Below are positions 11,426-43,484 of a stretch of DNA of 43,484 bases, piece after piece. Position numbers and translations under genes: made by a program. The notes under the pieces were generated by a model. That model was not told where the DNA came from. It ran no database searches and saw nothing but the letters and a program-made list of their open reading frames with translations. The stretch's first letter is position 1, and every line of letters begins with the position of its first letter. Source of the DNA: Acidilobaceae archaeon (GTDB lineage: Archaea > Thermoproteota > Thermoprotei_A > Sulfolobales > Acidilobaceae); assembly GCA_026413755.1 (NCBI GenBank), contig JAOAKH010000001.1, forward strand, positions 96,210-139,693, read 5' to 3'.

Positions 11426-14578
<3,153 letters not shown>

Positions 14579-15472: not shown

Positions 15473-16134
15473 AGTACTCTAGGCTCAGCTCTCGGCAAGC
15501 GGAGGAGGTAGCAGAGAAATCTATAGCAGTCCTCCCGCTGGGGAGCCTTGAGCAGCACTGCGAGGGACCGCTCGGCTTCGACTCCCTCGTCGCGGAGAGG
15601 CTGGCCTGGAGGGCTTGCGAGGAGCTAGAGAGGAAGGGGAGGCTTTGCGTGATCCTGCCCACGCTTCACTACGGCTTCTCGCCGGAGTGGAGCGAGGTGA
15701 AAGGCACTGTTAGCATAGGGCTGCACGCATATGTGCAGCTGATCTCCTCCATACTAGAGTCGCTGATCAGGGCGGGCTTCAGGCGCATAGCCCTTCTCAA
15801 CGCGCACGGCGGCAACGCGGGGCTTCTGGAGGCAGCCGCGAGGGAGCTCTCGAGGGAGGGGGTGGCTATAGCAGTGATCAACTACTGGCAGGCAGCCGGC
15901 CTGAGCCTAGATCACGCAGGCCCTGCAGAGGAGAGCGTGGCGAGGGCCCTGGGGCTCGACGTCAGCTTCGGGAGCTGCGAGGAGGAGGTGGGGCACGAGA
16001 GGCCCCCCATAGTGGTCGGGAGGGCGAGGAGGAGGGCCGGCATGAGGGGGGAGGCGGCGGAGCTGAAGGATCTGGCGAGGAGGGTCGCTGCGGTCCTGGA
16101 GAGGCTCTACGAGGCGAGGGGCACCATGATCTAG
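15463..16134 (+). CDS. Creatininase-family metal-dependent amidohydrolase (possibly ArfB, riboflavin/F420 pathway)
   Basis: The 223-residue protein has the creatininase-family metal site: LPLGSLEQH (Glu30, His32), GFDS (Asp40), NAHGGN (about 114-119) and DHAGPAEES, which is slightly divergent from the common HAGE-x-ETS. In archaea one family member, ArfB, deformylates 2-amino-5-formylamino-6-ribosylaminopyrimidinone phosphate on the way to riboflavin and F420. Co-transcription with hps, which makes ribulose 5-phosphate (the other riboflavin precursor), supports that role, but creatinine or mycofactocin-type activities are also known. GTG 15463 overlaps hps. Its stop shares CTAG with the convergent polyferredoxin gene. 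Confidence 0.72.
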   Translation: MPLEYSRLSSRQAEEVAEKSIAVLPLGSLEQHCEGPLGFDSLVAERLAWRACEELERKGRLCVILPTLHYGFSPEWSEVKGTVSIGLHAYVQLISSILESLIRAGFRRIALLNAHGGNAGLLEAAARELSREGVAIAVINYWQAAGLSLDHAGPAEESVARALGLDVSFGSCEEEVGHERPPIVVGRARRRAGMRGEAAELKDLARRVAAVLERLYEARGTMI

Positions 16135-17456
16135 TCGAAGAGGGCCTCTGCCTTGCACACGGGGCAGAGCCTAAGGCTCTTGAGGGCCTGCTCCGCTCCC
16201 GCGGCCCTCAGCCTCCTCTCCACAGCAGCTATGATCCTCTCCGAGGCCAGCTCTGCCCCGCACCTAATGCATTTTGCTATGAGGGAGCTTGCCAAGAGCC
16301 TCTCGGCAGGCGAGGAGAGGAGCCAGGGCACGCGCCTTATCGCACCCTCCGGGCAGACCTGCTGGCACTTCCTGCAGCCTATACACTCGTCCCTCACGAG
16401 CAGTAGCTCCATCGAGTCCCCCCTCCTCTCCACCCTCAGCGCCCCCGTGGGGCAGTACCTCGCGCAGGCCTCGCATAGCGTACAAGCCTGCTCTTCCACC
16501 TCCACGTCGGCGTAGCCTGGGAAGAGCAGCTCCCCCTCGGCGAGCAGCTCCCTCACGAAGCCCCTGTAGCTCCTCTGCTCCCCCTTATCTGCCAGCTCCA
16601 CAGGCCTCCTCAGCAGCTCCCCCGCCTCGGAGGGGCTGGAGGCTAGGTCTACCACGGCGCTTAGGTTCTCGTAGACCTTCCTCACCTCTCCGAAGCCTTC
16701 TGAGAGCAGCAGGGGCCTGAAGCCCCTGTGGGCAAGCCTCAGGAGGTCCAGCGGAGAGAGCTCCTCTGCCCTTGTCACCGGCAGCACTACCGTGGGCTTT
16801 GCCCCCTCTCTAGGCACCTCCCTCAGCAGCCTGAGGGGCGCTATGAGGAGGTGCGCTGGGGAGCCGCTTTGGCTCCTCAGCTCCCTGGCGAACTCCTCCA
16901 GAGCGTCCGTGCTCACGCTGGGGGTAGCTATGGCCTCTATGGGGCAGAGGGCTATGCAGAGGCCGCACATGGTGCACTTGTCGTAATCCACCTGCGGGGG
17001 CTTGCCGGAGAGCGCTCCGTGAGGGCAGCTCTCTACGCATAGCTGGCAGCGGTCCAGCACGTTGCACGTCTCTGCATCTATCAGCGGTGCGTTGACGTAA
17101 GCTATGGCGGAGAGGGGCCTTGAGAGCAGGGCCCTCCTGCTCACCCTTTTCCCCAGGCCCACCCGCACTGGCGCAAGCATGGCAGGGGAGGAGAGGAGCC
17201 TCTTGTGCCTGGCCGAGGCTATGGCCTCGGTGCTAAAGGCCCCTGCGGCCAGCTCTGCCTCAGCTTTTAGGTCAAGCAGGTCCACCGCGAAGGGGTTGAG
17301 CCCCTTGCCTTCCAGGAACTCGAAGACCTCCTCTGCCCTGCTCCAAGCTTCTTCGAAGGCCAGGAGGGCAGGCTCCTCTGCCCCCTCTAGCGCCTTAAGG
17401 GCCTCCCCGAGGTCTGCAAAGGCCTTGCCGAGCCGGGGGGAGCTGCTGAGGATCAA
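16131..17456 (-). CDS. Polyferredoxin with four 4Fe-4S motifs, associated with the Mo reductase
   Basis: This 441-residue protein has an N-terminal helical region of about 125 residues without cysteines. Two cluster motifs follow (CQLCVESCP and CTMCGLCIALCP, about 133-175), then a Rossmann-like middle part (LLIAPLRLL, PTVVLPVTRAEEL) and two more motifs (CTLCEACARYCP and CIGCRKCQQVCP, about 320-375). It ends with a CIRC...CPVC pair, probably zinc- or iron-binding. It is divergent from the catalytic subunit at 17575 across a 118-base regulatory region. Archaeal sulfur reductase clusters of Acidianus include an extra iron-sulfur protein gene (sreD), and this may be the equivalent. An electron-transfer or cofactor-insertion role is inferred. 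The start is TTG 17456 after GGGGAGAG. Confidence 0.7.
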   Translation of the reverse strand: MILSSSPRLGKAFADLGEALKALEGAEEPALLAFEEAWSRAEEVFEFLEGKGLNPFAVDLLDLKAEAELAAGAFSTEAIASARHKRLLSSPAMLAPVRVGLGKRVSRRALLSRPLSAIAYVNAPLIDAETCNVLDRCQLCVESCPHGALSGKPPQVDYDKCTMCGLCIALCPIEAIATPSVSTDALEEFARELRSQSGSPAHLLIAPLRLLREVPREGAKPTVVLPVTRAEELSPLDLLRLAHRGFRPLLLSEGFGEVRKVYENLSAVVDLASSPSEAGELLRRPVELADKGEQRSYRGFVRELLAEGELLFPGYADVEVEEQACTLCEACARYCPTGALRVERRGDSMELLLVRDECIGCRKCQQVCPEGAIRRVPWLLSSPAERLLASSLIAKCIRCGAELASERIIAAVERRLRAAGAEQALKSLRLCPVCKAEALFD

Positions 17457-17509
17457 CGTCTCTCCCCTTCTGACGCTATCAAAAGGTTAATATGACTTCG
17501 GCAAAAGTA

Positions 17510-17524
17510 TTTAACATTGTTAAA
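17510..17524. promoter_or_regulatory. Palindromic operator upstream of the Mo reductase operon
   Basis: TTTAACATTGTTAAA is a perfect 15-bp palindrome centred on 17517. The centre lies 15 bp before the TATA box AAATATATAA (17532-17541) of the catalytic gene. The same palindrome, with the same spacing, precedes the second Mo enzyme (42719-42735). It may also act on the divergent polyferredoxin gene. Confidence 0.75.
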
Positions 17525-17531
17525 CTATAGA

Positions 17532-17542
17532 AAATATATAAG
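17532..17542 (+). promoter_or_regulatory. TATA box of the Mo reductase operon
   Basis: AAATATATAAG is identical to the element at 42742-42752. It predicts transcription from about 17560, giving a very short leader that contains GAGGTGGTG and the ATG at 17575. Confidence 0.75.
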
Positions 17543-17574: not shown

Positions 17575-20500
17575 ATGGGTAAATTAAGCAGGAGGGACTT
17601 CATTAAGGTCGCTGGCGTTGCCGCTGCCGCAGCCTCCATACCCATAGTCCACCGCTACAAGCCCTACGAGGCCCTCTTGGCCGCAGTGAAGGACGTGGAG
17701 CCATTTGAGGCCCACTCGGTCCCCGGCATATGCGGCATGTGCATGGCTCAGTGCGCTATTTATGTAGACGTAGTTAACAACGTGCCTGTGAGGATAAGGC
17801 CGAACACTAACGCACCCACCAGCTCTATGGGCATATGCTCTAGGGGAGTATCTGGCATGTACAACGCCTTCCTCAACCCGGACAGGCTAACTAAGCCCCT
17901 CGTCAGGAAGCCCCTGCTGGACTGGATAGAGGGCAAGATAAGCTGGGAGGAAGCGCACAGAAGGCTCAAGGAGGTGAGGGGGACCGAGGCTGACTTCGTG
18001 GAGGTGGACGACTGGTGGAAGGTGGCTGAGATAATAGCGAGGAAGCTGAAGGAGCTCGCAGATGCTGGGGAGAGGCACGCGCTGGTCTTCCTCTACGGCG
18101 CCTGGGGCCCCATAGCTTCCATGAGGCTGGGAGTGCCGCTCGCGAGGTTCCTTGACGCTTTTGGCTCCCCCAACGAGATCCAGTTCGACATGCCCGCCTG
18201 CGTCACTGCAACGATCCTCGGCCACACTCTCACCGGCGTTCACGGCCACCAGGCGGCGCACGCGGTTACCGACTACTTGAACGCTAGGGCAATAGTCGTG
18301 GTGAGAAGGAACAACCTAGGCTCTGGCGTAGTCACGAGCGGTTGGAGGCTTGGGGTTAGCAGGGGAGAGGGAGCTAAGCTAATAGCGATAGACCCCGCGT
18401 TCTCAGAGACAGCAGGGATGGCTGACATATGGCTTCCTGCAAGGCCCGGCACTGATCTTGCAATTATCCTCGCGGCCATAAGGTTTGTGCTGGAGAACCC
18501 GCACTACATGGACGTGGAGTACCTCAAGAGGTACACTAACGCTCCTCACCTGGTGGTGGTGACTAGGGGCCACAGGCTCTCCGGGCTCCCCATACCCATT
18601 GCAGAGGTGGACTGGGCTCACCACGGCTTGCCGGAGCCCACACCGGCGAGGGTTGCGTTTACCGTAATAGACTCCAGGACCAGGAGGCCCTCCCCAGACG
18701 ACGCTACTATGGACCCAGCGCTTGAGGGCACCTTCAGGATAAGGCTGAAGGACGGGAGCGAGGTGGAGGCAAAGACCGTCCTCACGCTGCTCAGGGAGTG
18801 GGTCACCGCTAACCTCGACGCGCTAGCAAAGGCCCGCGGCGTGGTAGACTACATTGAAGCTGTTGCAAAGGAGGCCGACGTGCCGGTGGAGAGGCTCAGG
18901 CAGGCGATAAAGACCATAGTAGAGGAGAGGGCCCTCTTCGATCCGGGCTGGCACGACCCGAGGTTCAGCAACTCTGCGCAGATTCGGAGGGCCATGGACA
19001 TCCTAATGGCCCTATATGGGAAGATCCAGAGGCCGGGAGGCCTCTTCGTGGCCACCCATCTATACGGAGCCCACGCAGCTCTCTACGCCAGGCTAAAGCT
19101 AACGGTGAGCGGGAACCCGTTCTACAGCATAAGGGGAGACACCATATCAGCCTACAACTCCAAGTTCGCAGGCCCTCTACACATAATCCCGCTGGTGCCG
19201 CCTCTCCCAGGCCCCGCTGAGAGAGGGGCCCCCGCTATACCCAGGGCCCTCACTGCAGAGTGGGCCTCTATGATGGCGGCCGCAGGGTACCCGATACTGT
19301 TCCCATACCACCAGGTGCAGGCGCTCTACGATGCAGTGGTTCACGGCAAGCCCTACAAGGTAAAGGTCATCATGATGTTCGGAACTAACCCAATACCCGA
19401 GAACCCGAACGTGGAGATGTTCAAGAAGATCTTCAAGGAGGTGGAGCTCGCCGTAATACACGATGTGGTGTTCAACGACACTGCGCTCTACTCTGACATA
19501 GTGCTACCGGACATGACCTACTTGGAGAGGCTGGACCTGCCACTGGTGGGCACCTTCAGCCCATTCCCTGCCGTGAGCGTGAGGTTCCCGTGGTACTACA
19601 GGCTCTACAAGGAGGGCAAGATCAAGAGGGAGGTGAGGCCCTTCAACGTCAGGACAGGCTTCGAGGTCCTGCTTATGGTGGCCAAGAAGCTGCAGGAAAT
19701 GGGCGTCAAGGCAAGGGACGGCACCGAGTTCTCTGCAAACATGCCCGTAACTATGCTTGACGAGGAGGGCAAGTTCCCGCTGGACAGGCTGGAGACCTTC
19801 GTGAACAATATATTCAGGAGGGTCATGATAAGGGAGAAGGACGGCACCGTTAGGAGGCTAACCATCGACGACATATACAAGGCGGGCGGCTACCTGCTGT
19901 TCAGGTTCACGGGAACTACCACGACCATAGTGGACGAGCTCTGGAGCAGGGCGCTCGGCAGGGAGGTGAGGGTCACAGTCCCGGTCTGGGAGGCCTTCCA
20001 GTACGACGTGAAGAGGGAGAAGGAGTTCTGGGTGATGTATCACCACAGCAGCAGGGTAGGACTCGACATACCCTTCCCAACTCCCACCGGCAGGATAGAG
20101 ATCTACAGCGTGGAGCTGGCAAGGGAGATCAAGGACGTGCTAAAGAGGGACCCGCTGGAGGTGAGGCCCGACATATTGGAGAGCAGCCCCGTAGATCAGC
20201 TGTTCTCCCCCATACCTCTGTACGCCGGCAAGGCCCTCCCAGACTACGTATGGGGCTCCAGACTACCTGCTACCCCCGGCCACGAGGTCAACGGCCTCAA
20301 GGAACCAGACCCAGCTAGGGGAGAGCTGTTCCTAGTGTACCGCCACAGCCCGTTCACACATACTCACATGAGCTCTCAGAACAACCCCCTGCTCAACAAG
20401 ATAACTGCAAAGCACCTCTACGGCGCATGGATACATCCTGAGACCGCGAAGAGGATCGGGGTGAAGGACGGCGACTGGGTGATCGTGGAGCCCGCAGTGC

Positions 20501-20787
20501 CGAAGGTGCTAGAGCAGCTGAAGGCTGCGGGGGTGGAGAAGGTGCCTAAGATGAAGATCAAGGTGAGGGTGACCACGATGGTGAGGCCAGACGTGCTATA
20601 TATGGTGCACGGATGGCCTACTGAGTCGAAGAGGGAGACCGTGAGGCTAAAGACGATAAGGGAGTTCAGGGACCCAGAGTTCGGAGTGACGGACGACAAC
20701 TACTTCATTCCCTTCGTGACGGTTCAGCTGGGCGGCAGCTACGCCCTAGGGACAGGGGTGGTTAAAGTGAGCAAGTTCGGGGGGTGA
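17575..20787 (+). CDS. Tat-exported molybdopterin oxidoreductase catalytic subunit (sulfur/polysulfide reductase-like)
   Basis: This protein of about 1070 residues belongs to the DMSO-reductase superfamily. It begins with a twin-arginine signal (LSRRDFIKVAG) and hydrophobic run, so it is exported folded and faces outside. The [4Fe-4S] motif is CGMCMAQC with the fourth cysteine in MGICSRG. The likely Mo/W ligand is Cys in MPACVTATILGH. The C-terminal molybdopterin-dinucleotide-binding domain begins near LFLVYRHSPFTHTHMSSQN. With the next two genes it forms a catalytic/Fe-S/anchor set of the PsrABC/SreABC type. The ATG 17575 is preferred over GTG 17563, which overlaps the ribosome-binding site. 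Substrate is inferred from layout: sulfur or polysulfide most likely, with thiosulfate, tetrathionate or arsenate possible. Confidence 0.85.
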   Translation: MGKLSRRDFIKVAGVAAAAASIPIVHRYKPYEALLAAVKDVEPFEAHSVPGICGMCMAQCAIYVDVVNNVPVRIRPNTNAPTSSMGICSRGVSGMYNAFLNPDRLTKPLVRKPLLDWIEGKISWEEAHRRLKEVRGTEADFVEVDDWWKVAEIIARKLKELADAGERHALVFLYGAWGPIASMRLGVPLARFLDAFGSPNEIQFDMPACVTATILGHTLTGVHGHQAAHAVTDYLNARAIVVVRRNNLGSGVVTSGWRLGVSRGEGAKLIAIDPAFSETAGMADIWLPARPGTDLAIILAAIRFVLENPHYMDVEYLKRYTNAPHLVVVTRGHRLSGLPIPIAEVDWAHHGLPEPTPARVAFTVIDSRTRRPSPDDATMDPALEGTFRIRLKDGSEVEAKTVLTLLREWVTANLDALAKARGVVDYIEAVAKEADVPVERLRQAIKTIVEERALFDPGWHDPRFSNSAQIRRAMDILMALYGKIQRPGGLFVATHLYGAHAALYARLKLTVSGNPFYSIRGDTISAYNSKFAGPLHIIPLVPPLPGPAERGAPAIPRALTAEWASMMAAAGYPILFPYHQVQALYDAVVHGKPYKVKVIMMFGTNPIPENPNVEMFKKIFKEVELAVIHDVVFNDTALYSDIVLPDMTYLERLDLPLVGTFSPFPAVSVRFPWYYRLYKEGKIKREVRPFNVRTGFEVLLMVAKKLQEMGVKARDGTEFSANMPVTMLDEEGKFPLDRLETFVNNIFRRVMIREKDGTVRRLTIDDIYKAGGYLLFRFTGTTTTIVDELWSRALGREVRVTVPVWEAFQYDVKREKEFWVMYHHSSRVGLDIPFPTPTGRIEIYSVELAREIKDVLKRDPLEVRPDILESSPVDQLFSPIPLYAGKALPDYVWGSRLPATPGHEVNGLKEPDPARGELFLVYRHSPFTHTHMSSQNNPLLNKITAKHLYGAWIHPETAKRIGVKDGDWVIVEPAVPKVLEQLKAAGVEKVPKMKIKVRVTTMVRPDVLYMVHGWPTESKRETVRLKTIREFRDPEFGVTDDNYFIPFVTVQLGGSYALGTGVVKVSKFGG

Positions 20788-20793
20788 TAGGCC

Positions 20794-21489
20794 GTGAGGC
20801 CCGTGTTCGTGATAGACCCTAAGAAGTGCATTGGCTGCATGGCGTGCGTAGCTGCGTGTTCCATAGAGCACGGAGTGCTGTTCACCACAGCAGACAATGA
20901 GCCCATGGGTTGGTCTCACACTCAGCGCCTGAGGACCTGGGTCTCCTGGATAGAGACAGAGAACCCGCAGCCAAGGAGGACCTTCATGCCGGTGCTCTGC
21001 TTCCACTGCCAGGACACGCCGTGTGAGAGGGTCTGTCCGACCGGCGCTACCTTCAAGACAAAGGAGGGAGTGGTGCTGATAAACAAGGACAAGTGCATAG
21101 GCTGCGCATACTGTATCATAGCCTGCCCCTATGGAGCTAGGTACAAGGTGAAGGCAGGGGACAAGGAGAAGGCGAAGAAGGAGTTCAACATGAAGAGCGT
21201 GGAGGAGAGGTACGCGAAGACAGAGCTCAAGGTAAGGCTCTTCGAGCCGCCAGTGCCTAACAAGTGGGCTGTGGCAGAGAGGGCCGTGGACAAGTGCACC
21301 CTCTGCTACCATAGGAAGGAGCTAGGCAACTGGATTCCGGCATGTGTGGAGGTCTGCCCGCCAAAGGCAAGGATGTTCGGAGACCTCGACGACCCCAACG
21401 ACCCCGTGGCTGAGCTAGTCAGGAGCGGCAAGGCAAAGCAGCTGAGGCCTGACCTGAAGACGGAGGGCCTCGTATATTACGTGAGGTGA
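20794..21489 (+). CDS. Iron-sulfur electron-transfer subunit (DmsB/PsrB/NrfC-like)
   Basis: The 231-residue protein carries four [4Fe-4S] cluster motifs: CIGCMACVAAC with a distal CP, CFHCQDTPCERVCP, CIGCAYCIIACP and CTLCYHRKELGNWIPACVEVCP. That spacing pattern is the signature of this subunit family. It passes electrons between the membrane anchor and the catalytic subunit; it has no signal of its own and is presumably carried out by the Tat partner. GTG 20794 starts 6 bases after the catalytic-subunit stop. Its end overlaps or abuts the anchor gene. The subunit appears complete. Confidence 0.92.
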   Translation: MRPVFVIDPKKCIGCMACVAACSIEHGVLFTTADNEPMGWSHTQRLRTWVSWIETENPQPRRTFMPVLCFHCQDTPCERVCPTGATFKTKEGVVLINKDKCIGCAYCIIACPYGARYKVKAGDKEKAKKEFNMKSVEERYAKTELKVRLFEPPVPNKWAVAERAVDKCTLCYHRKELGNWIPACVEVCPPKARMFGDLDDPNDPVAELVRSGKAKQLRPDLKTEGLVYYVR

Positions 21490-21494
21490 GGGGG

Positions 21495-22358
21495 ATGGAG
21501 AACATAGTGTTCAACGAGGTCTGGGGCTTTGACATAGCTGTGGAGATGACCTTCCTGGCAATAGCGAGCTTTGCCACCCTGTTTGCCCTCCTTGCCTATA
21601 GGGAGGGCCGCCTCCGCGAGGCACTTATAGGCGCTGCAGTGGCGGCCGTGCTGCCGGTGTTCTCCCTCATAATACTGAACCTGCACTTGCTCAAGCCGGA
21701 GGCCTCCTACCTGCTCTTCCTGAGCCCCCAGCCCAGGAGCTGGATGGTATACGGCGGCATAGGTATGACGTCCCTAATAGTCCTCTCTGCCGTCTTCGCG
21801 CTCCTCCTCCTGAGCCAGCTGGCTAGGCTGCCTCTCATAGGCAGGCTCAGCCCTCTGGCAGCCAACTCTGCCCTAATGAACGCTGTGGGCATACTGATGG
21901 TGCTTGCGGGCGCCTTCGTGGCGCTATACACAGGGCTCCTCATGTCATATGAGAGGGGCATCCCATTCTGGCACAGCGCCGCAATCCCAGCCATAGCCTT
22001 CCTCATGGGGCTAACGGGAGGCTCCTCCCTCTACTCCCTGATAACGCCTCAGGACAGGCGCGTGAGCCTAGCGCTGATCTCCTCCCTCTCCCTGCTGCTG
22101 GTAATATACCTGGCCCACCTGCTGATCTCCCTGCTCGGTAGCCCCGCTGCCAATGTCTCTGCCAAGACAGTGCTCGACAGCGGCCTCTTCCAGGTCTCCC
22201 TGCTGCTGGCGTTGCTGGCGATAGTAGGGCTTGCGGCAAACCTTTACTTCAGGACTAGATACATTCCAATAGTCGCCGGGCTGATAGGAATATTCGTGAT
22301 ATTTGCGCTGAGGCTCCTGCTGCTAGAGGCAGGCGCCTGGGAGCTCCCTGTCGTATAA
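21495..22358 (+). CDS. NrfD/PsrC-like membrane anchor subunit
   Basis: The 287-residue protein has about eight predicted membrane helices and a start (NIVFNEVWGFDIAVEM) resembling NrfD/PsrC quinol-binding anchors. It links the quinone pool to the Fe-S subunit. GAGGTGA at 21483-21489 is best placed for ATG 21495; GTG 21486 would add three residues and overlap the upstream stop. The two-gene arrangement before it supports the assignment more than residue-level motifs do. SreC-type anchors of other archaea are larger (about ten helices), so the exact anchor class is uncertain. A T-rich terminator follows. Confidence 0.78.
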   Translation: MENIVFNEVWGFDIAVEMTFLAIASFATLFALLAYREGRLREALIGAAVAAVLPVFSLIILNLHLLKPEASYLLFLSPQPRSWMVYGGIGMTSLIVLSAVFALLLLSQLARLPLIGRLSPLAANSALMNAVGILMVLAGAFVALYTGLLMSYERGIPFWHSAAIPAIAFLMGLTGGSSLYSLITPQDRRVSLALISSLSLLLVIYLAHLLISLLGSPAANVSAKTVLDSGLFQVSLLLALLAIVGLAANLYFRTRYIPIVAGLIGIFVIFALRLLLLEAGAWELPVV

Positions 22359-32430: not shown

Positions 32431-33387
32431 ATGAGCCTTAGAAAGTACCCTTTCCTTGCAGACCCTAGGGACGTCGCTGCTGCCACCTTCCAGAGCCATA
32501 ACGCCCTAGAGGAGGCGGCCTCGGAGCTCTTCGAGATATGCGTGAGGAGGCTAGAAGCCATAGCCAGAGGGGAGGCATATGAGGCGAGGGGAGCAGAGGA
32601 GGAGGTGCTCTCCTTCTGGCTCTCCCTTATGGCGCTCAGGGAGGCGGGCAGCACGAGGCTGCTGGAGAGGGCGCTGAGAAGGGAGGGGGAGAGGCTCTAC
32701 GCGTTGCTGGAGGGCGCTAGCCTGGAGGAGCTGGTGGGGCTGGCGAGCGCCATGGGGGCTGAGGTGAAGCGGGAGGCGCTGGAGATCCCCTGGGCGATAC
32801 AGAGGGGCAAGGAGGTAAGGATAAGGCTAGAGGTAGCCATAAGCGCCCCCAGCTACCTCTCCCTCGTGGCGGGCACGCGGGAGGAGAGGCTGAAGCTAGT
32901 TAACTCCTTCCTCCTTGGCGGCTGGGTGTACATGGACGCGAGGCTGCTCAGGCTCTTCCTCAAGGAGGCGCTGCCGAGGTATTTGCTAAGGAGGCTGAGG
33001 GAGCTGGAGCCGCCGGAGGGCAGGTTCATAGAGCTCGTGATGAAGGCCAGGGCGCTGGAGGCAAGGGAGGCGGGGGTTAGGGAGGAGCTCTTCCCGAAGT
33101 GTATAGTGGACCTGCTGGCTAAGGCCCGCGTCTCTGTGCCCTCAGACGAAGAGGTGTTCGTGATCCTTTCCTTCCTAAGGGCCATAGGAGCTCCCTCAGC
33201 ATACGTGGAGGAGCTGCTGAGGGAGACAGGCCTGGGGGCTGGGAGGGAGGGGGTGATAGCTGCAGCCCTCGCCAGACTCGAGGTCTCTCCATACTCCTGC
33301 AAGGAGCTCAAGGAGAGGGGGATGTGCGAGTGCGAAGAGGACCTAGTTAAGGAGTACCTCAGGGCCCTTCGGAAGGCCTCGCGCTGA
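32431..33387 (+). CDS. priL: DNA primase large subunit PriL
   Basis: The 318-residue protein starts with the conserved KYPFL and ends with the iron-sulfur domain. The four cluster cysteines are in FPKCIVDLLA, SPYSCKELKERGMC and the following EC. The YSC-x(4-7)-G-(L/M)-C pattern is the archaeal/eukaryotic PriL signature. It partners the catalytic small subunit PriS, not in the window, to make primers for replication. The AT-rich AAATATAAT (32414-32422) just before ATG 32431 serves as promoter. Its last 29 bases overlap the convergent methyltransferase gene. The length is slightly shorter than most homologues. Confidence 0.85.
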   Translation: MSLRKYPFLADPRDVAAATFQSHNALEEAASELFEICVRRLEAIARGEAYEARGAEEEVLSFWLSLMALREAGSTRLLERALRREGERLYALLEGASLEELVGLASAMGAEVKREALEIPWAIQRGKEVRIRLEVAISAPSYLSLVAGTREERLKLVNSFLLGGWVYMDARLLRLFLKEALPRYLLRRLRELEPPEGRFIELVMKARALEAREAGVREELFPKCIVDLLAKARVSVPSDEEVFVILSFLRAIGAPSAYVEELLRETGLGAGREGVIAAALARLEVSPYSCKELKERGMCECEEDLVKEYLRALRKASR

Positions 33388-36247
33388 CCATGTCCAGCGC
33401 CCTCTCCAGCAGCCCCTGCCTGCCGCCCCTCATAAGATAGTCGTCGAAGGCCTCCACTATCTCCCTGAACTGCCAGTGCCTCGAGTACAGGAACTCCAGG
33501 GCTTCCCTTGAATTCCCCTCCGGATACTCTATGCCCTCCAGCGCGAGCTGCCTCGAGAGCTCTGCGACGCGGCCCACAAGCTCTGCTCCCACCTCTCTCG
33601 TCGAGAGGCCTAGCATGGCTATCGCCATAGCAGGCCTTGCTGCCTGCTTCCTTATGAACGACCTCCCCTCGCGCACTACGAGGTAGGCAAGGTAGTTGAG
33701 GGCCCCCGCATAGTAGTGCGCAGCGACGCTATCCCTCAGCTTTATGTAGGCCACGCTGTCGTGAGCTACCGAGCCCCTCACGTCTGCTGGCACGCAAGCC
33801 ACGAAGGCCCGGGAGGCGCGATACGTAACGTAGTGGGAGGAGGGATCTAGGGAGGAGAAGCCAGCCCGCGCCTCCTCTGCCAGCGTCATGATCTTCTGCC
33901 TGTCCTCGGCGCTCATGCGGCCCTCGTTCAGCCTTACGTACTCCTCCAGGAAGGCCCTCAGAGCCCTCCAGCCCTTCCTGGAGAGCAGCACCAGCTCATG
34001 GTCGCAGCGGAAGGGCCTTATGGTGCCCAGGTAGAGCAACCTGTATGCCCCCACGGCGAAGGCCTCCATTACATGCTTAGGCACGGCGTAGGGGAGCGCG
34101 TTGTACAGCTCCAGCTCCACCGCTCCCCCTTGCTCCCTGAAGGATCTGAGGACGAGCCCCGCGTAGCCCGCCCTCCCCCTTGCTTTGTGGCCCCCGTAGA
34201 GGCCGGTTATGTAAGTTGCCTTTGGGACGAGCTCCTCAGCGCCCAGCCTCTCCGCGACGACCCTCTCGTCCTCCAGCGCCCACCTCCGCGCGGCCTCCAT
34301 GTACTCCTCGTAGCTGAGGGGCAGCACTTCCTCCCTGAGGGCTCCCCCCTCCAGGAATGCCCTCGCCAGCCTGGCTTCCCTCCTGGAGCCCTTCCTAGCT
34401 ATGACGAGGGCAGGCGGCATGCCGTGGCCGAAGGCGTCGTAGTCCACTTCCACCAGCTCCACGTAGCAGTCCTTGCATGCTTCCTCCAGGACCATGAAGG
34501 TGGTTATTATGCCGGCGTTCATGGAGCTCCCGCTCCTGAAGGACTGCTCCCTGTACATAACGAAGGCAACCCCCTCTCGGCTCGCCCTGAGGGCCTTGAG
34601 GAGGGCGCCGCAGGCTATGTCTGAGCCGTTAACTATGTCTGCGGCCTTCTTCCTCCTCACCCCCTGCCTCTCTAGCACTTGCGTCAGCTCCTCCCTGAGG
34701 CGCTTAACGTACTCTGCCTTGGCGGAGCTCGTCTGGAGCCAGGGGGGATTAGTGATCACGTAGTCAGGCCTCATCGAGCTGAAGAGGTAAGAGGAGAGGA
34801 GGGACGCAGCGTAGGCTGCCCAAGCCCCGCCGTACGCCCTCAGCCCCTCCAGGCCCTCGGCCAGCGCAGAGGCCTTGGAAGCCAGCCCGCCCAGCCTCCT
34901 CGCGATCCCTCTCTCGAGGGCCGCCGCAAAGGCGGCCTCCCCTCGCTGCTCGGCAAGCTCCGCCTCCCTCAGAGAGGCGTGGAGCAGCGCCTCGAAGGAG
35001 GAGAGGAGCGAAAGGATCTCCCCCAGCTCCCTCCCTTTGGCGGCCCTGGCTATTTCTGCAACCCCCTCCGCGAGCCTCTCATGCGCCCTCCCCTCTAGAA
35101 AAATGCCCCTTCCCCCGAACCAGGCCGCAAGAGTGTCTAGGAGGTACACCCTGGGAGGGCCGGGCGGCAGGGAGCCTGCGGCTCTCCTATATGCCATTAT
35201 CAGCGCGGCCCTGGCTATCACCACAGCTAGGGGGTTAACGTCGAAGCCTACGAGGCTGCCGTAGGCCTCCTCAGGCCTCTCGCCCTCCTCCAGCTTTTTG
35301 TAGAACGCCCTCACGAGGAACGTGCCGGAGCCGCAGAAGGGGTCCATAACGGTCTTCCCCTTTAGTTCGAAGCGTGCGATAGCTCTATCTACTAGCCAGG
35401 GGGGAGTGTAGTATTCTCCGATCTCCCTGCGGGCCCTCTTCTCTATTAGCGCCTCGTAAAGGGTCCTGAAGGCGTCCTCCTCGCTCCCAGCCTCCCAATC
35501 TAGCAGGCGGATCCTCGCAGCTACAGCCTCCGCAACCCTCCTCGCCCTCCTCCGCCCCTCCTCGCTCAGGAGCCACCAGTTAAGGTGGGGGAGGGCCACC
35601 TCGTATCCTAGCCCTCTTGCTGCCAGCGCGCCGCTGGCCGCCTCCAGCAGATCTCCCTCTAGCCTCAGCGCGGCAGCAAGGCTGATCATGGCTATCATCT
35701 GCATGAGGGAGTGCTTTGCCAACATACCTGCTAGCCGCTCCCGAGGAACTGCCCTGCCGTAGAGGGCGGCCAGCACCCCCTCGTACGCCTTCAGAAGGGC
35801 CTCTAGCTCCGCGCTGCCCTGCGCCTCCTCGAGGGCCTCCAGCAGCTCCCTCTCCAGCCCGTCCGTCCCGGAAGAGAAAAGGGCCTCCACGCTGGCGGCG
35901 GAGGCAGGAGGCTTGAGGGAGCAGAGCAGGGGCCGCAGGTAGTTCCTCACCTCCTCCCAAGGGCCTTTCTTTGCTAGCAGCAGGGCCCCTCCCGAGGCCT
36001 CGTATACTTCCCAGGTGCTCCCCTCTATGACGACGTAGTGGGTCACCGCTGCAAGGCGAGGGATCCCCGGGGCTCCCCCCTCTAACAGGGCTAGCCTGCT
36101 GCCCAGCAGGACAACCCTCTGCCCGCCTACCTCGACCTCGCGCACGAGCGCTCCTCGGCGCAGCAGGAGTGAAAGATCTCCCGCCGCCTTTTCATGCAAG
36201 CACCTCGCGTGCTCTAGCAGGAGCTGCTCTGCTCCTCGCTCCCTCAT
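33359..36247 (-). CDS. Large stand-alone N6-adenine-type DNA methyltransferase
   Basis: The 962-residue protein has an N-terminal region (about 1-270, first strands then helices). A class I methyltransferase domain follows, beginning GEYYTPPWLVDRAI, with SAM-binding motif I DPFCGSGTF (302-310) and catalytic motif IV NPPW (about 500). The helical insert between motif I and motif IV is long (about 190 residues). The C-terminal 400 residues include a probable target-recognition region. It resembles Eco57I/type IIG-like or PglX-like enzymes, but I see no PD-(D/E)xK nuclease motif and no partner nuclease or specificity gene. It lies between primase and TatD genes. Function as an orphan methylase or solitary defence enzyme is open. 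Confidence 0.8.
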   Translation of the reverse strand: MRERGAEQLLLEHARCLHEKAAGDLSLLLRRGALVREVEVGGQRVVLLGSRLALLEGGAPGIPRLAAVTHYVVIEGSTWEVYEASGGALLLAKKGPWEEVRNYLRPLLCSLKPPASAASVEALFSSGTDGLERELLEALEEAQGSAELEALLKAYEGVLAALYGRAVPRERLAGMLAKHSLMQMIAMISLAAALRLEGDLLEAASGALAARGLGYEVALPHLNWWLLSEEGRRRARRVAEAVAARIRLLDWEAGSEEDAFRTLYEALIEKRARREIGEYYTPPWLVDRAIARFELKGKTVMDPFCGSGTFLVRAFYKKLEEGERPEEAYGSLVGFDVNPLAVVIARAALIMAYRRAAGSLPPGPPRVYLLDTLAAWFGGRGIFLEGRAHERLAEGVAEIARAAKGRELGEILSLLSSFEALLHASLREAELAEQRGEAAFAAALERGIARRLGGLASKASALAEGLEGLRAYGGAWAAYAASLLSSYLFSSMRPDYVITNPPWLQTSSAKAEYVKRLREELTQVLERQGVRRKKAADIVNGSDIACGALLKALRASREGVAFVMYREQSFRSGSSMNAGIITTFMVLEEACKDCYVELVEVDYDAFGHGMPPALVIARKGSRREARLARAFLEGGALREEVLPLSYEEYMEAARRWALEDERVVAERLGAEELVPKATYITGLYGGHKARGRAGYAGLVLRSFREQGGAVELELYNALPYAVPKHVMEAFAVGAYRLLYLGTIRPFRCDHELVLLSRKGWRALRAFLEEYVRLNEGRMSAEDRQKIMTLAEEARAGFSSLDPSSHYVTYRASRAFVACVPADVRGSVAHDSVAYIKLRDSVAAHYYAGALNYLAYLVVREGRSFIRKQAARPAMAIAMLGLSTREVGAELVGRVAELSRQLALEGIEYPEGNSREALEFLYSRHWQFREIVEAFDDYLMRGGRQGLLERALDMVSARPSEGP

Positions 36248-42718: not shown

Positions 42719-42735
42719 GTTTAACAGTGTTAAAC
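42719..42735. promoter_or_regulatory. Palindromic operator upstream of the second Mo enzyme
   Basis: GTTTAACAGTGTTAAAC is a perfect 17-bp palindrome centred on 42727, 15 bp before the TATA box. It matches the 17510-17524 site in all seven bases of both core arms. Confidence 0.78.
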
Positions 42736-42741
42736 AAAAAT

Positions 42742-42752
42742 AAATATATAAG
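42742..42752 (+). promoter_or_regulatory. TATA box of the second Mo enzyme gene
   Basis: AAATATATAAG is identical to the element at 17532-17542. The following CTTTTGTTAG resembles GTTTTGATGG at the first promoter. Transcription is predicted from about 42770, before TTG 42787. Confidence 0.72.
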
Positions 42753-42786: not shown

Positions 42787-43484
42787 TTGACAACGCTCTC
42801 TAGAAGGGATTTTGTTAAGCTCGCTGGCGCCTTTGCCGGCCTTGCCCTCGTGGGCGGGGCCGCTTATGCTGCTAGAACACAAGTGCAGAGGATGGCCCTA
42901 GCGCAGAAGAAGGAGCCTCTAAGGCTCGAGTACGTCAGCACCTTCTGCAGCATGTGCGGCGCCCTGTGTGGCATTGAGATCGTTCTCAACGAGGGGAAGC
43001 CCATAGCGGTAAGGGCCATAGATGGCCAGCCGCAGACGGGAGCCTGTGGGAGAGGCGCCTCCCTCCCATGGCTATACAACAACCCGCTCAGGCTGAGGAA
43101 GCCGCTGAAGAGGGTGGGCGAGAGAGGGGAGGGCAAGTTCGTGGAGGTAGACTGGGACACGGCGCTTAACGAGATAGCGGCAAAGCTGAAGGCAATAGTG
43201 GAGAAGCACGGCTTCAGGTCCATAGCGCTAACGCACCATGACATATGGAGCGGGTACATGAGCCTGCTGCAGTACCTGTTCGGCACCACTAACAGGGTAG
43301 ATCACAGCGGCTCCTGCTTCGGCCATGGCACTGTGGCGAGGAGGCACACCTTCGGCATAGAGCACCATAGGTTCGTGGACCCGGACTACGACAACGCGAA
43401 CTACCTGCTGGCCGTGGGCCGCACTATAAGCACTGCGAGCATGGGCGTCGTGAACAGGGTGATGAGGAACGAGAACCTCAGGAT
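42787..43484 (+). CDS. Second Tat-exported molybdopterin oxidoreductase (3' end outside window)
   Basis: The first 232 codons lie in the window. TTG 42787 is the only possible start because a stop lies in frame at 42775, and GAGGGT precedes it. The protein has a twin-arginine signal (LSRRDFVKLAGAFAG) and a [4Fe-4S] motif CSMCGALC with the fourth cysteine in TGACGRGAS. A probable Mo/W-ligand cysteine is in DHSGSCFGHGT. It is a paralogue, not a copy, of the enzyme at 17575, with sequence only loosely similar. Electron-transfer partners presumably follow downstream. The substrate is unknown. Confidence 0.85.
   Translation, partial: MTTLSRRDFVKLAGAFAGLALVGGAAYAARTQVQRMALAQKKEPLRLEYVSTFCSMCGALCGIEIVLNEGKPIAVRAIDGQPQTGACGRGASLPWLYNNPLRLRKPLKRVGERGEGKFVEVDWDTALNEIAAKLKAIVEKHGFRSIALTHHDIWSGYMSLLQYLFGTTNRVDHSGSCFGHGTVARRHTFGIEHHRFVDPDYDNANYLLAVGRTISTASMGVVNRVMRNENLR

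Follow-up and report, generated by a model that had tools for sequence, protein, structure and literature searches.

The bacterial regulators SufR and IscR bind DNA through winged-helix or Rrf2 domains and carry cluster-binding cysteines. They govern iron–sulfur (Fe–S) cluster assembly, are autoregulated and are encoded in some lineages by the first gene of the suf cluster, SufR acting at suf (PMC6034842), while SUF has been reported as the only Fe–S assembly system in acidophilic archaea (PMC9628965). Among archaeal regulators, SurR and OxsR activate from sites upstream of the TATA box and BRE and repress from sites downstream (PMC12162507, PMC9426492), and Haloferax PhoU2, which reportedly retains the iron-cluster residues of PhoU, is linked to pst genes (PMC6267482). 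In Saccharolobus solfataricus, the SpoVT/AbrB-domain gene SSO0923 lies directly upstream of suf and is upregulated together with sufB and sufD upon exposure to H2O2; Maaty et al. (2009) suggested that iron and/or sulfur metabolism is under its control, and in the same treatment the CISM-type pair SSO2794/2795 (COG0437/COG0243) and porD-1 decreased about 2-fold (PMC2739297). In the open-licence literature we found no further paper mentioning SSO0923, no operator and regulon described for SUF in these lineages, and none for an AbrB–PhoU regulator of suf.

We analysed a 43,484-nucleotide stretch of the genome of a heat-loving archaeon of the Acidilobaceae (hereafter the window), in which the palindrome preceding a partial Mo-enzyme operon is one of six near-identical sites in the genome that, judging from comparison with dozens of relatives, most likely bind REG and exert Fe–S, iron and redox control. 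REG, an AbrB/MazE-domain and PhoU-like protein of about 300 aa, is encoded elsewhere in the window's own 1.12-Mb genome (G000, C50:27564–28460). Across genera, putative sites stand before sufC/sufB and before REG itself, so that at sequence level both suf and the regulator's gene carry the operator. The candidate would resemble SufR and IscR as an autoregulated Fe–S assembly regulator whose gene, in some lineages, heads the suf cluster, but it has an AbrB/MazE domain and a PhoU-like bundle. With SurR of the Thermococcales it would share an archaeal setting, a regulatory sign set by site position relative to TATA and control of electron-transfer enzymes, whereas its DNA-binding fold and motif differ from those of SurR (GTTn3AACn5GTT). 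Haloferax PhoU2 likewise joins an N-terminal DNA-binding domain to a C-terminal PhoU-like domain (PMC6267482), but REG is tied to suf and lacks the conserved acidic cluster ligands. SSO0923 has the gene order seen at the Sulfolobaceae REG-type/suf loci described below, but neither operator nor regulon was described for it (PMC2739297).

The palindrome of the second Mo operon (site 2, 42719–42735, GTTTAACAGTGTTAAAC) is perfect, as the initial annotation stated, with 7-bp arms around a 3-bp spacer (GTTTAAC-AGT-GTTAAAC). It is followed on the forward strand by an A-rich gap of 9 bp (42736–42744), inside which the BRE is presumed to lie (an inferred call), and by the TATA box TATATAAG (42745–42752), recognised by sequence and by TATA matrix. 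Its counterpart at the first Mo operon (site 1, 17509–17525, ATTTAACATTGTTAAAC, ATTTAAC-ATT-GTTAAAC) is a 15-bp perfect palindrome whose next base pair, A/C, is unmatched, in line with the annotated one-base extension of site 2 on each side, and precedes a TATA box of the same sequence, TATATAAG (17535–17542, forward strand). Both are proposed REG operators, assigned to neither strand. The annotated equality of spacing was also confirmed: palindrome centres at 17517 and 42727 and TATATAA centres at 17538 and 42748 give 21 bp at both sites. Perfect 7-3-7 symmetry is not evidence in itself, since the window holds six such palindromes against 1–6 in mononucleotide shuffles; the other five (2783, 26783, 28604, 35622 and 39246) are all G+C-rich and unrelated to the motif. 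At up to three mismatches the window contains only sites 1 and 2, against 0.16 ± 0.39 copies in shuffles, and these shuffles together with the genome-wide count of the core indicate that it is the particular sequence, rather than its symmetry, that is special.

Relative strength was assessed with a symmetrised matrix built from 52 target sites of the family (consensus cTTTAAC-RSY-GTTAAAg), which gives 32.3 bits for site 2 and 25.0 bits for site 1. Site 2 is accordingly predicted to be the stronger site, as had been suggested, but the extra outer pair is not the cause: the family prefers C..G at that position (59%) over the G..C of site 2, which rules out the outer pair as the source of strength, and the difference is attributed to the central base, which is S in 96% of target sites and T in site 1. 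Perfect symmetry is likewise kept at site 2 of the sister species (G001), where A..T forms the outer pair. Site 1 and its TATA box are conserved between G000 and G001 inside an otherwise diverged intergenic region, with the 21-bp distance retained, whereas a 4-bp deletion places site 2 of G001 at 17 bp from TATA. This deletion argues against the proposal that helical phase matters and rules out strict phasing; with the gap shortened by 4 bp, site 2 of G001 touches the presumed BRE, an arrangement that fits repression as well as activation.

Both operons encode components of PsrABC/CISM-type respiratory complexes. Mo operon 1, on the forward strand, comprises a CISM/PsrA-like Mo oxidoreductase of 1070 aa with a Tat signal (17575–20787), a 4Fe–4S subunit (PsrB/DsrO/ArrB-like, 20794–21489) and an NrfD/PsrC-like membrane subunit (21486–22358), that is, a Mo-bisPGD subunit with an Fe4S4 domain, a 4Fe–4S subunit and an NrfD subunit in that order. 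Mo operon 2 is partial because the window ends at the contig end, and only the start of its CISM/PsrA-like Mo oxidoreductase is present (42787–43484, forward strand; Tat signal TTLSRRDFVKLAG); the G001 counterpart is intact and encodes a PsrA-like catalytic subunit (839 aa) followed by the 4Fe–4S and NrfD subunits. NCBIfam equivalog cut-offs for a substrate-specific assignment of the Mo enzymes were not reached. A polyferredoxin with several 4Fe–4S motifs (16131–17456, reverse strand) is divergent from Mo operon 1, an arrangement also kept in G001 (L082), and shares the intergenic region that holds site 1; it is a possible further target of that site, on the strength of this position. Elsewhere in the window, the reverse strand encodes a 2-oxoacid:ferredoxin oxidoreductase (alpha/gamma fusion plus beta, 11749–14578), a class that carries the site in other genera, and a large N-6 DNA methylase protein of 962 aa, possibly a combined restriction-modification enzyme (33359–36247). 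The window's own 2-oxoacid:ferredoxin oxidoreductase operon has no full site, and AACGGCGTT in front of it (14657) was not counted, as it holds only the 6-base core, whose frequency in the window is about that given by base composition.

Among six genomes of the genus, Mo-operon sites occur only in G000 and G001, and the site is absent upstream of enzyme 2 homologues of 54–55% identity from other species of the genus (upstream regions read in L070 and L071). Control of the Mo operons through the site is therefore indicated by sequence for two species, and their recruitment into the regulon is either recent or locally kept. A related site, AATTAACTCTGTTAAAGG, closely follows the TATA box of a Mo enzyme 1 homologue in a Sulfolobaceae genome (G146; L183, about 700–860).

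The annotated idea of an operator common to the two Mo-enzyme operons was borne out and can be widened to a genome-wide regulon. Exact TTTAACNNNGTTAAA occurs four times in the whole 1.12-Mb genome, each time before a gene start, against an expectation of about 0.01–0.07 from base composition, and the reversed control pattern has no matches in this genome. Across 48 Acidilobaceae genomes, TTTAACNNNGTTAAA is found 80 times, in 42 genomes and all 14 genera, compared with three times for the composition-matched control (the same pattern read backwards). Allowing up to two mismatches, G000 contains six sites, in front of REG, sufC, sufB, a thioredoxin reductase and the two Mo operons, with no control matches. 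We retrieved 74 distinct sites from the family and read the adjoining genes, which are most often REG (28 sites, nine genera), followed by sufC (13), 2-oxoacid:ferredoxin oxidoreductase (11, of which 7 are divergent with REG) and sufB (5). Mo enzymes account for three sites besides site 2 of the window, the iron permease FTR1 for two, and a peroxiredoxin, a DtxR-type regulator (L089) and a multihaem cytochrome for one each; the cytochrome gene (G011, L125 2001–3727) is divergent from another gene. Automatic classes recognised no target for 19 of the 74 sites. The RSY spacer is present in 24 of the 28 REG sites and in most target sites, but in only three of these 19, so many of the latter are probably chance occurrences.

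The association between REG and suf extends beyond the family. Each of the ten Sulfolobaceae genomes examined has a REG-type gene immediately before sufC in the same orientation. The REG-type promoters read in nine of them carry TATAAACNNNGTTTAA (TATAAAC-NNN-GTTTAA) or a close variant beside the TATA box, with conserved flanks and variation in the three central bases. In G083, which belongs to another family, the same variant with a 4-bp spacer precedes both the REG-type gene and sufC. The palindromes at the REG-type genes of G008 and G083 (TTTAAC-ATGA-GTTAAA and TTTAAC-ATAT-GTTAAA; L146 and L147, reverse strand) lie within about 60 bases upstream of the gene, and the encoded proteins have GSSS where REG proteins associated with 3-bp spacers have GGSS, a possible change of specificity. 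None of 11 paralogous AbrB–PhoU genes, mostly from the same genomes, has the site. Deep branches were without resolution in a tree of REG, suf-linked Sulfolobaceae proteins and paralogs; gene order, the site and the order of best hits make it likely that the suf-linked genes of Sulfolobaceae are REG orthologues.

REG itself belongs to the AbrB/MazE group, residues 11–54 matching PF04014 above its cut-off (E = 9.9e-11). In its AlphaFold2 model (pLDDT 83), an AbrB-like part at the N-terminus is accompanied by a small alpha/beta domain and a bundle of six helices, and the best fold matches are to PhoU (3l39 and 4q25; probability 1.0, but weak with E about 0.02). Pfam gave no PhoU match; Pfam and NCBIfam returned AbrB/MazE-type domains only, with no winged-helix or Rrf2 domain, and searching PDB sequences with the REG profile yielded nothing credible. 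Among 28 sequences, no acidic residue outside the DNA-binding domain is invariant or nearly so, and the conserved E(D)XXXD iron-cluster motifs of the PhoU family are absent. Outside this domain and its immediate C-terminal edge, only C79, G84, S247, R250 and C297 are invariant. The value of the two cysteines as a REG-specific signature is weakened by their occurrence: paralogs mostly have the C79/C297-type pair as well, and in G076 the first cysteine is missing from the suf-linked protein. For this reason, Fe–S cluster binding by REG through the two conserved cysteines is a speculative suggestion.

Taken together, the target set, the linkage to suf, the absence of the site from paralogs and the induction of SSO0923 argue that the palindrome is most likely not a sulfur switch but a REG operator for Fe–S, iron and redox functions. 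We consider it probable that REG is the protein that binds the palindrome and controls itself and the SUF genes, the Mo operons having been added to its regulon; in this best explanation, the sites with their distribution, targets and geometry and the linkage of REG to suf are observed, whereas we infer that REG is the binding protein, what it senses and in which direction it acts on the Mo operons. A REG dimer would occupy cTTTAAC-RSY-GTTAAAg and govern its own gene together with the SUF genes, and in this lineage two PsrABC-like Mo/Fe–S respiratory operons would have joined the regulon. The C-terminal region of REG, with its two strongly conserved cysteines, may serve to sense Fe–S, iron or oxidative status.

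The geometry of the sites differs between target classes. At REG promoters the TATA box is mostly at about +13.5 bp from the site, which then covers the presumed BRE; at sufC and sufB the site usually follows TATA at a distance of about 16 bp or more, close to the inferred transcription start; and at both Mo operons of G000 and site 1 of G001, TATA lies 21 bp downstream of the site, leaving the BRE free. A 9-bp gap keeps the site clear of BRE and TATA at three of the four Mo promoters, unlike at the REG and suf promoters, and the ferredoxin oxidoreductase sites do not have this upstream arrangement. By the position rule published for SurR and OxsR, downstream sites fit repression and upstream sites activation. 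In the sufficient state, REG would repress its own gene by sitting on the BRE there, and sufC/sufB by binding close to their start site, whereas at the Mo operons REG placed just upstream of BRE/TATA (centre about −48) could aid TBP/TFB binding, so that activation is plausible from position. Cluster damage or a shortage of iron would then derepress suf and deprive the Mo enzymes of activation. We put forward only tentatively the full reading of an archaeal AbrB–PhoU Fe–S regulator, neither SufR nor IscR, that represses suf and itself and activates the Mo complexes from a site upstream of the BRE. Iron limitation and oxidative cluster damage are the main signals predicted, and a comparison of aerobic with sulfur-reducing conditions would miss them.

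The sign at the Mo operons could instead be the same as at suf, with all targets repressed by the same regulator and derepressed by cluster damage or iron limitation. Most regulon sites overlap the BRE or sit downstream of TATA, as does the related site of the Sulfolobaceae Mo enzyme (L183), and the short distance at site 2 of G001 points the same way; set against this are the free BRE at the three other Mo promoters and the fall of the S. solfataricus CISM pair as suf rises (PMC2739297), a pair to which no site was tied in this analysis. Uniform repression is in our judgement possible, if somewhat doubtful. The identity of the regulator is a separate matter. A different Fe–S or iron regulator might bind the sites, with REG merely one of its targets, and the DtxR-type gene that carries a site in one genome (L089) could be cited for this; we think it unlikely, as the site precedes REG in nine genera, Sulfolobaceae show linkage of REG-type genes with suf, and in G083 the site has varied together at REG and sufC; autoregulation accounts for this most simply.

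The sulfur-reduction switch implied by the initial annotation would call for a SurR-like sulfur/redox winged-helix regulator that binds the site and switches sulfur respiration, a reading favoured by the PsrABC-like complexes that both operons encode and by the way in which SurR acts through position relative to TATA. It did not hold up and appears very improbable: the SurR motif GTTn3AAC(n5GTT) is absent within 60 bp of both sites, the same site stands before suf, FTR1 and the AbrB–PhoU gene across the family, and the targets are Fe–S assembly, iron uptake, ferredoxin oxidoreductases and redox enzymes. Even less credit can be given to the suggestion that the two sites are alike only through duplication of a promoter along with the Mo operons, in the absence of any regulon. 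Both sites do precede paralogous PsrA-like genes with similar start regions, but around site 1 the two species differ in flanking sequence and share the site and TATA, and identical cores precede unrelated genes (REG, sufC, sufB and thioredoxin reductase); these unrelated targets rule out promoter duplication, which the family-wide distribution also contradicts.

The novelty proposed here is a candidate suf regulator that would parallel those of bacteria but be built on another protein family. The motif, the matrix and the REG gene make the question of an archaeal suf operator directly testable in a tractable Sulfolobaceae host, and a function is suggested for one member of the large archaeal AbrB–PhoU family, which is usually annotated after phosphate. 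In this lineage, two cluster-rich respiratory operons have apparently been recruited into an Fe–S regulon and so tied to the cell's iron–sulfur supply; if the dual-sign reading is true, production of these enzymes would track the supply of clusters.
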